Assembly: GCF_000378385.1 (NCBI RefSeq)
Contig: NZ_KB899660.1
Coordinates: forward strand, 1-64,000
Source of the DNA: Paenibacillus daejeonensis DSM 15491
GTDB lineage: Bacteria > Bacillota > Bacilli > Paenibacillales > Paenibacillaceae
DNA: 64,000 nt
Reading direction: 5' to 3'
Position numbers and translations under genes: made by a program. Positions 1 to 10,174 of the stretch are shown here, in pieces. The first letter of the stretch is position 1. Each line of letters begins with the position of its first letter. The notes beneath the pieces are model-generated. The model worked only from the letters and a program-made list of their open reading frames with translations. It searched no databases and was not told the origin of the DNA.

Positions 1-1173
1 TTGGATACCTGTCGCACCCGTCATGCCGGTGATGCCAGTCGCACCTTGAACACCCGTCGCACCCGTCATACCGGTCACGCCCGTGACACCTGGGAGGCCC
101 GTTGCACCCGTCATACCCGTGAGGCCAGTGGCACCTTGGAGACCCGTCGCTCCTGTCATGCCGGTCACGCCCGTGACACCTGAGAGACCCGTCGCGCCCG
201 TCATGCCGGTGATGCCTGTCGCACCTTGGATACCGGTCACACCCGTCATACCCGTGACGCCCGTCGCACCTTGAACCCCAGTTGCACCCGTCATCCCGGT
301 AGCCCCTGGAGCACCCGTCGCGCCCGTCATTCCAGTGAAACCTGTGGCACCTTGGAGTCCCGTCGCCCCTGTAACACCCACAGCCCCATTCAGACCCGTG
401 GCTCCGGTGTTACCCGTAACACCATCTGCACCGGTATTGCCTTGGGGACCCGTCGCACCCGTAGCTCCAGTTTCACCAGCCCCGGTCGGACCTGTTGCGC
501 CTTGTTCGCCAATTGGAATCCAGTCCGTGTAGGTAACCCCGTTGTCCTGGCTACTCCGGTACTGGAGGGTCGGATTGGAGATATAGAGCTGCTGAATATA
601 GCTGCCCACCTGTGACACATACAGCGTCCATACGGCGGGATGCGCGACATCATCCGGACCCCCCTGCGGTGGGGGGCCATTCGGATCATCCGAGCTGTAC
701 ACCCCCGCTGTTGTATAGTTATCCAGGTTGCTGCCCGAGGGCTCTTCATTGTTGATGGGGAAGACCCCATCATCAGCACTTAACACGACTTCGCCGGTCT
801 GGCCATTGACGCTTAATACCCCACCCGGCTCGCCGGGTGCACCTGTCGCTCCCGTTGCTCCGGCAGGTCCTGCCAGGGTTGGCAGATTCGATGCAGTCTT
901 CAATTTCGAATCCAGCATCATTTCTTGCCGGAACACCGTGTCGAGCATCGACTGCGCACTCTGATTCACCTGCAGGATTTGATCCAACGTGGCAGCCGGA
1001 CCGCTGACCCCCGCAAGGGTGCCGAGAGCATATTGAATTTTTTCTCCCTCAGCATTGATAATGTGGGCCAAGCCCAGTTCTTCCATCGCAATCGAGGAGA
1101 AGAGCAAGTTCACAACGTCATCACGAGATAATGAGATAGTAGGGGTAATGTTGGGAAGGTTTGGATTGGACAT
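1..1173 (-). CDS. Collagen-like spore-surface protein, C-terminus beyond window edge
   Basis: The visible 391 codons read in three blocks. Residues 1 to about 100 are an alpha-helical N-terminal domain ([11 protein letters not shown] start, then [20 protein letters not shown]) shared with the genes at 14970 and 17075. Residues about 105-220 carry an [11 protein letters not shown] motif and a segment resembling a phage-tail knob ([13 protein letters not shown] ... YRSSQD ... WIPIG). From about residue 222 to the edge are Gly-X-Y triplets, mostly with Thr in Y, built from a unit of about 15 residues ([12 protein letters not shown] plus a GxQ or GxP triplet), which gives a 45-nt DNA period. ATG at 1173 follows AGGAGG. 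It is the last visible gene of a minus-strand run of glycosyl- and pyruvyltransferase-like genes, so it is a likely substrate of them. By analogy with BclA, it should form trimeric surface filaments; that role is inferred. Confidence 0.88.
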
Positions 1174-1279
1174 GTGTAGTCCTCCTTATACACAAGATAA
1201 TCCAAACTATGCTAGATGGGGGAGAACGGCAACGGATGAAAGACCTAACTTTGTCGTAGTTGCCGACACTGACGATAAA

Positions 1280-2227
1280 TCATACGCTAGGGAGAGGGGA
1301 GGAACCCAGGCAAATTCCCTCTACAGCTTCTACAAATTCAGATACTCTAACCTTGGTAGAGTGTCGTTCATGAACCATGTGCATACCGTTACGGGCAATG
1401 CGCTCCCGCTCTTCAGGATGCTTGAGATAATAGTTGGCCTTTTCCTCAAAGTTATGGTCGTCGATGGACACGTAATGGACACCCGGAATAAACCCCAGAT
1501 CACTGATTTCTTGAGAGTGAGACGCCATCAACAAGCTATTGCAAGCCGCAATCTCAAAATATTTCATCAAGGAATACTTGAACGTAGAATTACACGTGAA
1601 GCTAATCTTGGCTCTATTCAAAAGCAGGGCAAACCGGTCACCCACCCAGACATCCTGTTCCTCTCCACCGATCTGACGATAGCCCGGATGGTGAATATGC
1701 TTGAATTCCGGATGGTTTCGGAACCGCTTGGCTATGGCACTACGCAAGGGGTACACATTGTCATACATCGCACCCGTCAGCAACATCCCAATATCCCGCT
1801 CCAGCTGATAATCCTTAAAGAGATCCGTGTTGGCATGGTGCGGACTCCATATCATGTTCTCTGCGAACTCAGGATACCAAGCGCGAAACCGGTCCCTATA
1901 ATACGTAAACACATGACGGATACCCTCTTCTTTCATGATGACTTTGCGTCGCTCCTGCTCATAATGCAAGTCGTGTAAACTTACGGCATAAGGGAGGTTC
2001 AGCTCTTTGAGACCGGTCACGACGGGCGAGAAGTTCTCCATATAATCGTGGAGGTACACGAAATCTGGTACAAACTCCAGGGATTCGATAATCTCCGTTA
2101 CCTTGCCCGATTGGTGGGAAATGACTAATTCCGTTGACTTCGCAAGCTCCTCCATGAAATAGTGGGAGGCGGGTACAGTATAGTTGCGGTCATCTCTTGT
2201 GAGAACGAGCAGCTTCAATTTTGCCAT
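1280..2227 (-). CDS. CgeB-like glycosyltransferase (family 1 type)
   Basis: A protein of about 315 residues. The C-terminal half has the layout of the Glycos_transf_1_2 domain found in CgeB-type spore proteins: a segment around SFTCNSTFKYSLMKYFEIAA, then SLLMASHSQEISDLGF and a closing helix LKHPEERERIARNGMHMV. It has no signal peptide or membrane helix, so it should act in the mother-cell cytoplasm. An in-frame GTG lies at 2236, but the AGGAG sits right on it; the ATG at 2227 has correct spacing and is preferred. It lies between the pyruvyltransferase-like genes and the collagen-like gene in one orientation, which suggests it adds sugars to the collagen-like protein or to its glycan. CgeB in Bacillus is linked to sigma-K-dependent spore crust glycosylation. 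The donor and acceptor sugars are unknown. Confidence 0.82.
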   Translation of the reverse strand: MAKLKLLVLTRDDRNYTVPASHYFMEELAKSTELVISHQSGKVTEIIESLEFVPDFVYLHDYMENFSPVVTGLKELNLPYAVSLHDLHYEQERRKVIMKEEGIRHVFTYYRDRFRAWYPEFAENMIWSPHHANTDLFKDYQLERDIGMLLTGAMYDNVYPLRSAIAKRFRNHPEFKHIHHPGYRQIGGEEQDVWVGDRFALLLNRAKISFTCNSTFKYSLMKYFEIAACNSLLMASHSQEISDLGFIPGVHYVSIDDHNFEEKANYYLKHPEERERIARNGMHMVHERHSTKVRVSEFVEAVEGICLGSSPLPSV

Positions 2228-2247
2228 GGTCTTCACTCCTGACGCAA

Positions 2248-8864: not shown

Positions 8865-8885
8865 GAGCCAAGGAGGAGGGTAGGG

Positions 8886-9809
8886 GTGCCAATGAACGAG
8901 ACCATCATTCCTGTCTACGGGTCCAGTTATATGTATGCGGGCAAATGCTCAGTTGGTTTGTACCTCGACAAGACGACCAAGACGGCCATTCTAATGGACT
9001 CTGGCCCAGATGAGAGAACGGCGGAAGAGATTGATCATGCGTTGAGTCAAGAAGGGTTCAGCATCCGCGCAATTATTCATACCCATACGCACAATAGCAG
9101 TCGCGGCGGCGATGCCTATTATGCTCTGCGCTATCCGGAGATTCGGATCTACGCTACACCTTCTTCCTTGGGAAGGGGGCATGGCTTCGAGCATGGCTTA
9201 CGCAACGTAACGATTACAGAGCTGGGAGAGAATCTGAGACAGGAGCTTCTGGATGTCCTTCGTTTATTGAATGAGCGAGACGAGGAGGTTCAGATTGCAG
9301 GGGTGAACTTCCGAATCCTGCCATTGCCAGGCCACGACCCGGGCATGGTTGGTATTATGACGCCGGATCAAGTGTTGTATTGCGGCGATGCATTGTTCGG
9401 GGAACGAATTCTGCGCAAACAAACGATACTGCTCTATACTCATTTTGGCGCGGCCCGTCGTTCGTTTCGCAAGCTGGCCGCCATGCGTCCAAAAGCCTAT
9501 GTACTCTATCATGGGGGAATCTATCGGGACTTGTCACAGCTCATCAATCAACACTTGGAACGCTTCAATCGCTTGGTCCTCCAGACCGAGCAGCAGCTTG
9601 CGGAGCAATCAGTTACGGTAGAGCAGCTAGTACACAAGTTGATGCAAAACCATGCGCTGGAGGATGGAATTGAACAGTATTGGCTGGTGACAGAGATCGT
9701 TCATGCTTGTATCAACGAATTGCTGGAGCTGGACAGAGTGACTGTCAGCATCCATCAAGGAACGCTTCGCATTGGATTGAGAGAACACCTGACGGACAGG
9801 TCTGGTTAG
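8886..9809 (+). CDS. Metallo-beta-lactamase-fold protein with altered metal-binding motif
   Basis: 307 residues with the MBL fold order: beta strands with ILMDSGPDE, then IHTHTHNSSRGGD, then LPLPGHDPGMVGI and YCGDALFGE. The canonical HxHxDH motif is here HTHNSS: the Asp and third His are both Ser, while the later PGH His and the GD Asp are kept. One metal site is therefore probably lost or changed. A C-terminal extension of about 90 residues is helical. GTG at 8886 follows AGGAGGAGGG; an ATG two codons later is also possible. It sits 21 bp after the previous gene in the spore-surface operon. It could be a hydrolase with an unusual site or a non-catalytic binding protein; family relatives hydrolyse thioesters, phosphodiesters or lactones. 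Confidence 0.78.
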   Translation: MPMNETIIPVYGSSYMYAGKCSVGLYLDKTTKTAILMDSGPDERTAEEIDHALSQEGFSIRAIIHTHTHNSSRGGDAYYALRYPEIRIYATPSSLGRGHGFEHGLRNVTITELGENLRQELLDVLRLLNERDEEVQIAGVNFRILPLPGHDPGMVGIMTPDQVLYCGDALFGERILRKQTILLYTHFGAARRSFRKLAAMRPKAYVLYHGGIYRDLSQLINQHLERFNRLVLQTEQQLAEQSVTVEQLVHKLMQNHALEDGIEQYWLVTEIVHACINELLELDRVTVSIHQGTLRIGLREHLTDRSG

Positions 9810-9871
9810 AAATTGGTTAGCCACTCCCTCTACACTACAGATACAAGAAGGTTATCGAGAGGAGAGACGAT

Positions 9872-10174
9872 ATGCCCGCTCAGCAACAGGATTTACTTCA
9901 ACTCACAGCATCCATGTTTGATGTAATGAAGGCTCTATCTTCACGGATTAATGATCTGGAGGAGATGGAGTTTATCGACTGGGACCGATTCTTTAAATGG
10001 CAATTCATTATGGATAAATTCATTGCCGGCTGCGGCATTCCCGACACCATCCGCTCTTGTGTAGTAGATCAATTCATCCTCCCTGGATTGGAGAATGAAT
10101 TGACCTCTAATGAAGTTGCTGAAGGCATCCACGAATTTATCCGGAACCACCGCGAGAGCTGCGGACCCGCTTGA
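9872..10174 (+). CDS. Small unknown helical protein ending the spore-surface arm
   Basis: 100 residues, not recognised. It appears all-helical (LLQLTASMFDVMKALSSRIN, then WDRFFKWQFIMDKFIAG) with a compact C-terminal helix EVAEGIHEFIRNH. No signal peptide, membrane segment or known motif. ATG at 9872 is preceded by GAGAGGAGAG. It lies 62 bp after the MBL-fold gene and 18 bp before the convergent end of the hybrid kinase gene, so it closes the plus-strand operon. Function unknown; membership in the spore-surface system is inferred from position only. Confidence 0.7.
   Translation: MPAQQQDLLQLTASMFDVMKALSSRINDLEEMEFIDWDRFFKWQFIMDKFIAGCGIPDTIRSCVVDQFILPGLENELTSNEVAEGIHEFIRNHRESCGPA

Follow-up and report, generated by a model that had tools for sequence, protein, structure and literature searches.

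The window analysed here, the first 64,000 nucleotides of contig C2 (NZ_KB899660.1; G000:C2:1-64000) of the Paenibacillus daejeonensis DSM 15491 genome (7.46 Mb in 36 contigs), lies at the extreme start of that contig and opens with a gene cluster that we judge likely to make an endospore appendage of the A-ENA type together with its sugar coat. The cluster consists of two divergent arms. The minus arm encodes a collagen-like protein (CLP), a PF13524 glycosyltransferase, three PF04230 proteins of the polysaccharide pyruvyl transferase (PST) family, and N1, a small protein that consists solely of what we call the N-domain; the plus arm encodes a glycosyltransferase that joins a GT2 domain to TPRs (GT2-TPR), the N-domain proteins N2, N3, and N4, the protein U1, a Lactamase_B-fold protein (metallo-beta-lactamase fold, MBL), and the protein U2. 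All these gene types had been read from the DNA in the original prediction, which assigned them to a glycosylated, pyruvylated collagen coat on spores, and inspection of the open reading frames (ORFs) together with Pfam scans confirms both the inventory and its layout.

The N-domain and ex vivo spore fibers

Pfam and NCBIfam scans of the window genes returned no family for the N-domain. A profile of 25 N-domain rows (A3), however, has a single match in the PDB at E<=5, chain A of 9ihh (E=1e-29), an entry released in March 2026 under the title 'Ex vivo spore-silk A-ENA fibers'. N1 alone recovers 9ihh_A with phmmer (E=4.8e-22, residues 6-101 aligned to 3-95), that is, over the length of the protomer, and both N1 and N3 align with it over almost the full chain, at 46% and 39% identity, respectively. 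The AlphaFold2 model of N1 (pLDDT 84.4) is all-helical, a hairpin of helices 17-50 and 63-103 that reproduces the two-helix protomer fold of the 9ihh family; in a Foldseek search, 9ihh_A is its sole match at E<=0.001 (E=9.6e-5, TM(target) 0.81, 45% identity), the next standing at E=0.89. Because the N-domain sequence and the predicted N1 fold both match this protomer family, we regard N1-N4 as candidate A-ENA-type appendage subunits. The window combines its four N-only paralogues, which are divergent, with collagen fusions and glycosyltransferases, a set that may distinguish it from 9ihh.

The three small N-domain relatives proposed for the plus arm fare unequally. N3 and N4 are upheld, the latter as a distinct subfamily whose profile (A2) matches 9ihh at E=1.1e-7 and A3 with an hhalign probability of 98.6%, and whose C-terminal tail, [FLIM]D[YF], is present in 13 of 14 aligned sequences, whereas N2 is a weak, highly diverged member (24.4 bits with A3). 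In P. alvei DSM 29 (L065:8871-9128), N4 is shortened to 85 aa, compared with ~120 aa elsewhere. The genome of the window harbors 21 N-domain matches at E<=0.001, and across Bacillota the domain was found at E<=1e-8 in at least 31 of the 398 genomes sampled, the window's own counted and with at most 12 candidates scored per genome. The N4 profile reaches 110 bits or more in 23 of 344 Paenibacillaceae genomes, including all 14 that encode the MBL protein, so N4 is the more widespread of the two.

Architecture of the locus

The features, by window position, are as follows.

1-1173, minus strand: N-domain CLP, 5' part only, 391 aa; PF01391 at 6e-28, N-domain 135.9 bits to N1; the gene runs off the contig end
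1280-2236, minus strand: GT1-like ('CgeB-like') glycosyltransferase; PF13524 67.9 bits, cut-off 25; 57-59% identical copies in Paenibacillus sp. 598K
2248-3318, minus strand: PST1, PST-family protein; PF04230 83.8 bits; K replaces the R of the R-L-H motif
3336-4433, minus strand: PST2, PF04230 family, 95.1 bits (scanned as the longer ORF to 4493); TTG start after AGGAGG
4444-5529, minus strand: PST3, PF04230 family, 83.1 bits; 45% identical to PST1 and PST2
5553-5882, minus strand: N1, N-domain-only protein, candidate A-ENA-type fiber subunit by phmmer (9ihh_A), AlphaFold2 model, and Foldseek
5883-6048, no strand: divergent promoter region with a putative, unproven SigK-like CATATATTA, 43 bp before N1
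6049-7188, plus strand: GT2-TPR, probable polypeptide glycosyltransferase; PF00535 and TPR; best PDB matches GmaR and SunS
7205-7528, plus strand: N2, highly diverged N-domain protein; 65% identical copy in 598K
7541-7867, plus strand: N3, short-loop N-domain protein with an acidic EE C-terminus; 39% identical to the 9ihh_A stretch
7884-8246, plus strand: N4, distinct N-domain subfamily with C-terminal [FLIM]D[YF]
8265-8864, plus strand: U1, fast-evolving, with a helical N-part, a variable linker, and a C-terminal [IV]G motif
8886-9809, plus strand: MBL-fold protein, LACTB2-like, without the D and last H of HxHxDH; PF00753 38.2 bits
9872-10174, plus strand: U2, uncharacterized; no Pfam match; 52% identical in 598K, its sole relative among the MBL loci
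10193-13285, minus strand: hybrid histidine kinase, possibly a mere neighbor; syntenic and 52% identical in 598K
13429-14580, plus strand: response regulator, possibly a mere neighbor; syntenic and 52% identical in 598K
14970-16994, plus strand: N-domain CLP, 674 aa
17075-19108, plus strand: N-domain CLP, 677 aa

Since the contig itself starts where the window does, the first CLP is known only as its N-terminal 391 aa; the last two CLPs carry the cluster past position 10174. The most probable start of N1 is 5882 (Met7), which a GGAGG site precedes, and that of PST2 is the TTG at 4433, directly after AGGAGG. A few kilobases past the last collagen gene, at 23012-23995, lies an ORF that we take to be tyrosine-recombinase-like.

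The arrangement appears to be beyond chance, because Paenibacillus sp. 598K repeats the gene order and orientation of the cluster and because the core, N4 followed by a slot ORF and MBL, recurs at 16/16 other MBL loci, 598K included. The original prediction had named scattered, not co-inherited genes in other genomes as the observation that would count against it; the core does not behave in this manner, as GT2-TPR stays with the N-domain and N4-slot-MBL stays together, whereas the PST genes outside this genus do.

Collagen-like proteins as putative tips or anchors

The stalks of the CLPs are dominated by Gly-X-Thr triplets: 42 of 59 in the partial first protein, 98 of 106 in the 674-aa one, and 81 of 100 in the 677-aa one. 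All three share the N-domain with the candidate fiber subunits, and we consider them probably to be fiber-docking tips or anchors. Elsewhere in the genome, contig C10 (L021:4486-9480) encodes an N-domain collagen protein of 1664 aa that contains 422 Gly-X-Y triplets; within the 13 kb stretch around it, the glycosyltransferases searched for gave no match.

The Gly-X-Thr-rich stalk, likely O-glycosylated, is what the CLPs have in common with the BclA nap of the exosporium, and the alternative closest to the original prediction is a nap of glycosylated collagen like that of BclA, pyruvylated by the three pyruvyltransferases, in which the N-domain proteins would serve as basal-layer anchors instead of forming a fiber. 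Several N-domain CLPs with such stalks and three PF04230 proteins above the family cut-off are what one would expect of it, and excerpts of PMC11952670 present the glycosylation of BclA-type stalks as established. The window CLPs, however, carry a different N-terminal domain and neither of the hallmarks of BclA-type exosporium collagens: the first CLP has no match to the exosporium leader model TIGR03720 at E<=1, and the two complete ones have none to BclA_C (PF18573) at E<=0.01, the C-terminus of the first lying outside the window. The small N proteins, moreover, match a fiber protomer, and no PST gene was found at the 30 further N-domain loci inspected. We therefore consider such a nap unlikely. 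What stands of the predicted collagen coat is spore-surface assembly and glycosylation, which the homology of the N-domain to ex vivo spore fibers and the GT2 enzymes beside N-domains in distant genomes favor; the N-domain proteins themselves are better read as A-ENA-type subunits than as accessories of a BclA-like nap.

A closer parallel to a fiber with collagen-bearing ends is F-ENA of Bacillus thuringiensis, in the excerpted description of PMC11952670 a spore fiber with a collagen-like anchor and tip and a putative glycosyltransferase encoded nearby; the same work includes Paenibacillaceae fibers whose anchor has no exosporium leader. F-ENA subunits, as described there, are DUF4183 beta proteins, whereas the window N-domain is predicted to be all-helical, and Pfam scans detected no DUF4183 match in 13 window genes and the two additional CLPs.

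A glycosyltransferase that accompanies the N-domain

The closest PDB relatives of GT2-TPR are GmaR (E=2.7e-34), which we take to be a flagellin glycosyltransferase, and SunS (E=1.5e-26), a peptide S-glycosyltransferase by the name of its NCBIfam model. The homology covers the GT2 domain over ~190-300 aa, but the window enzyme scores below the cut-off of the SunS family model TIGR04195 (102.9 bits against 350) and carries TPRs; we consider it a probable polypeptide glycosyltransferase. Its nearest functional precedent, among those found, for a CLP with a glycosyltransferase of its own is SgtA, which, in excerpts of PMC7157674, glycosylates BclA3 of Clostridioides difficile. Glycosyltransferases of the B. 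subtilis crust are listed in the excerpted part of PMC10502511.

The association with the N-domain extends far beyond Paenibacillus. A search of 50 genomes, 30 of them N-positive (the window's own left out) and 20 listed as N-negative, returned eight homologues of at least 280 bits, all of them located 25-345 bp from an N-domain match and together drawn from seven Bacillota families other than that of the window; they come from 8/30 N-positive and 0/20 N-negative genomes, where the best score was 214 bits and where 10 of the 20 had only part of the first-look candidates scored. Among Paenibacillaceae loci, GT2-TPR-type genes lie within the same stretch (up to ~20 kb) at 12 of 16 MBL loci and at 11 of 15 selected MBL-less N4 loci (three of these 11 with only the type of relative seen on contig C20), as opposed to 0/18 PST control loci. 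In the genome of the window, both GT2-TPR copies above 300 bits adjoin N-domain genes, and six of the nine matches at E<=1e-5 fall on N-domain loci. The genome also has a second module (L020, C2:686000-698000) with N4, a U-like ORF, GT2-TPR, N1, and a CLP but without MBL or PST.

A minimal version comes from a Bacillus velezensis record (plasmid pDMB05-1), where a CLP, GT2-TPR, a small helical-looking ORF of 154 aa, and an N-domain protein are encoded side by side. This 807-kb 'plasmid' (L183, NZ_CP083716.1) carries metE, proA, and proB and hence may be chromosomal sequence. Conversely, two distant Bacillota genomes (G347 and G348; loci L223 and L224) possess N-domain genes with no GT2-TPR match at E<=1e-20 and are candidates for fibers that lack this enzyme.

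The N4-U1-MBL unit and its altered metal site

The MBL protein is found, at E<=1e-20, in 14 of the 344 Paenibacillaceae genomes, and at all 16 other loci N4, an ORF of ~190-300 aa, and MBL follow in succession, with N3 in front at 13; the carriers include Paenibacillus sp. 598K, P. alvei DSM 29, P. agilis, P. assamensis, P. arenosi, and P. taiwanensis. A single-sequence search with U1 (E<=1e-5) detects only its own genome among the 344, yet a 38% match is visible in 598K, and the ORFs aligned by slot (alignment A4) share a helical-looking N-part and the C-terminal [IV]G motif. The proposal that U1 is a further N-domain is unsupported (hhalign E 0.37 and 0.22), as is the grouping of all U-like ORFs in one family, those of other module types showing no detectable homology to U1. 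That the U1 tail binds MBL was first suggested by the tail-less, MBL-less second module (L020); as a specific link this was rejected, because U1 relatives at L178 and L179 carry the tail with no MBL in the stretch. At L171 and L173, U1 relatives lack both the tail and an MBL. In distant Bacillota (L214:4433-5287, L216:8618-9412, L227:6544-7430), an N4-type gene is directly followed by an ORF of 138-165 aa, in the position that U1 takes behind N4 but with no detectable homology to it.

The predicted MBL structure (pLDDT 83.5) resembles, over almost its full length, LACTB2 (4ad9, E=2.7e-14) and, lower down the ranking, PqsE, which we take to be an MBL protein with a partner-binding role. Where these folds are the closest in the PDB, the active site sets the cluster proteins apart: the window protein reads HTHNSS at HxHxDH and thus departs from the hydrolase metal motif, and a census of 18 cluster MBLs (the window, the 16 other places, and Paenibacillus sp. 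1_12) found HxH and the later H, D, and H retained but D and H of DH both lost in all 18, which bears out the altered MBL-fold protein of the original prediction. In the outgroup, DH is kept in 68/68 relatives drawn from the best 80 of 168, a 69th (L071) having been removed as the same place as cluster member L056; 44 of these 68 have N aligned at the second H of HxH. The loss common to the cluster lineage points to a lost second metal site, and we infer that the cluster MBL may have a non-hydrolytic or single-metal role. The closest relatives with an intact HxHxDH, 31-33% identical, come from metagenome-assembled genomes labelled Chlamydiia and Gammaproteobacteria (L069, L070); N-domain neighbors were not found in the flanking DNA examined. 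Further MBL copies at L043, L045, and L051 form N4-slot-MBL only, with no N3 or GT2-TPR in the stretch and a distantly similar kinase/regulator pair ~3-6 kb away.

The pyruvyl transferase arm

PST1-PST3 all exceed the PF04230 cut-off of 25.3 bits, a likeness to CsaB-type enzymes that ends at the CsaB equivalog model TIGR03609, where they score 75.5, 71.8, and 79.3 bits against a cut-off of 213.1. All three, and the 598K copy, have KLH in place of RLH, a substitution that bears on whether they would transfer pyruvate from PEP; so do at least 10 of the 19 listed PST relatives, the other nine having been matched differently by the script, whereas the strongest PF04230 protein of the genome, on contig C10, reads RLH. 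The genome encodes five PF04230 proteins, the cluster three of them, and the PST profile has no PDB match at E<=0.1.

The original prediction had included the three pyruvyltransferases in the assembly line for the coat, and this part does not hold as a general feature. With the divergent layout kept, 598K has a single PST; none was found at 30 further N-domain loci, of which 15 have MBL and the other 15 only N4; and the subfamily, present in 42 of the 344 genomes at E<=1e-20, is accompanied by an N-domain gene at 0/18 and by a GT2-TPR gene at 0/18 of the loci inspected elsewhere. The PST trio was accordingly rejected as the cluster core. Given this separation, pyruvylation is possible and, on present data, specific to this genus at best. 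The neighboring enzyme is a glycosyltransferase, as predicted; 'CgeB-like' is the label of the original prediction, the sole Pfam match above cut-off being PF13524.

The separation at those 18 loci could also mean that two unrelated neighbors abut here, a surface-glycan arm (PST, CgeB-like) and a spore-fiber arm, which would be compatible with the fiber reading of the latter. We deem this quite improbable, because 598K keeps the arm of N1, PST, and the CgeB-like gene opposite GT2-N2-N3-N4-U1-MBL and because N1 itself sits within the PST arm.

A lead on the sugar

Contig C20 (L017/L018, ~1-24300) encodes, within ~24 kb, seven N-domain CLPs and the tail of another at its left end, along with two CgeB-like and two glycosyltransferase-like proteins and, adjoining the CLPs, a full RfbF-RfbG-RfbH set whose members exceed their NCBIfam cut-offs (393.6/300.25, 476.5/278.45, and 728.7/423, respectively). 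RfbF is a glucose-1-phosphate cytidylyltransferase and RfbG a CDP-glucose 4,6-dehydratase; the product to which RfbF, RfbG, and RfbH lead is a 3,6-dideoxyhexose. At their left ends, C2 and C20 have 41 bases in common, oriented as they should be if the window CLP ran on there, and C20 may thus adjoin the window; since the shared bases belong to collagen repeats, they are a hint only, and contig C35 could intervene. The trio also lies beside an N4 locus in L177 and L178 (confirmed by NCBIfam for L178), RfbH alone, above cut-off, at L042, and the dehydratase and reductase of the set directly beyond the CgeB-like gene in 598K, where RfbF was not seen in the stretches examined. Set against this lead, RfbH- and RfbG-like genes also occur at 1/18 PST control loci (L209), and CDP-sugar genes were not seen at most N-domain loci examined. 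As a guess at the glycan, a 3,6-dideoxyhexose nevertheless seems the better-supported lead than pyruvate. The literature searched offered nothing direct that links PST and CgeB to spores, or dideoxyhexose to spores.

Spore stage and the weight of contrary evidence

Several observations weigh against an A-ENA-type appendage. Spore location and spore-stage expression are read from the homology to ex vivo spore fibers, and the promoters lend no help: sigma-E/K motifs precede 11 of 76 lead N-domain genes, as compared with 21 of 229 controls, once near-duplicates are dropped. Membership in the A-ENA family draws on sequence and predicted fold alone, 9ihh being known here by its PDB title only, and a literature search for A-ENA gave no paper that describes 9ihh or A-ENA. 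The enzyme is not a constant companion either: 22 of the 30 N-positive genomes have no GT2-TPR of at least 280 bits, and none lies near 8 of the 31 N4 loci inspected, while its absence from N-negative genomes is qualified by the limit on scored candidates mentioned above. GT2-TPR thus does not appear to be obligatory, and fibers without it seem possible. Finally, module types other than that of the window have small U-like ORFs with no detectable homology to U1, and the U1 tail motif is present at two loci without MBL.

Of the other promoter counts, CATANNNTA and related motifs show no excess before N-domain genes (15/122 against 30/243 in controls), and one of five patterns, CATANNNT, shows a nominal difference (29/76 against 52/229, p=0.011, uncorrected). 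The histidine kinase and response regulator were considered as dedicated regulators, a reading weakened by the five other near-full-length paralogues of the kinase in the genome.

The failure of the promoter scan to reveal sporulation control agrees with the proposal of a vegetative-cell adhesin or biofilm system unrelated to spores, for which ClpA-D of B. amyloliquefaciens FZB42, needed for biofilm formation and root adhesion according to excerpts of PMC4319854 and of the review PMC13001227, offer a precedent. The title of 9ihh, however, names ex vivo spore fibers, and the ClpB/C N-termini are described, in the same excerpts of PMC4319854, as galactose-binding-like. We regard this proposal as very unlikely.

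A model and its implications

For the A-ENA-type appendage with its sugar coat, we envisage the following scheme. N1, and perhaps N3, would be short two-helix proteins that polymerize into fibers, and the CLPs, via the N-terminal N-domain they share, would dock on the fiber or the spore as tips or anchors and display their long Gly-X-Thr stalks. GT2-TPR, by analogy with GmaR and SunS, would place the first sugar onto Thr/Ser of the stalks and/or the fiber. The glycan, whose sugar would probably be the CDP-derived 3,6-dideoxyhexose for which C20 carries the genes, could then be extended or capped by the other glycosyltransferase and, within this genus, by the PST proteins. N4, U1, and the MBL protein with its altered metal site may work together in the mother-cell cytoplasm, as a complex for assembly or docking by which N-domain proteins are chaperoned or capped on their way to the spore surface.

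More broadly, and only tentatively, the cluster could represent a widespread class of glycosylated alpha-helical spore fibers of Bacillota in which CLPs co-polymerize via the protomer domain, in many cases along with a dedicated GmaR/SunS-like enzyme, and in which, in Paenibacillaceae, an MBL protein devoid of its second metal site would have been recruited, alongside N4 and U1 as an adaptor, to help assemble the fiber in a non-hydrolytic role; taken as a whole, this generalization remains doubtful. At the least, the A-ENA family gains a genetic context, with a glycosyltransferase beside the N-domain in seven further Bacillota families, collagen fusions, and the recurrent N4-U1-MBL unit. The attachment of collagen tips to spore fibers and the glycosylation of these structures thereby become testable, for example, in B. 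velezensis, where a single record presents the minimal four-gene version.

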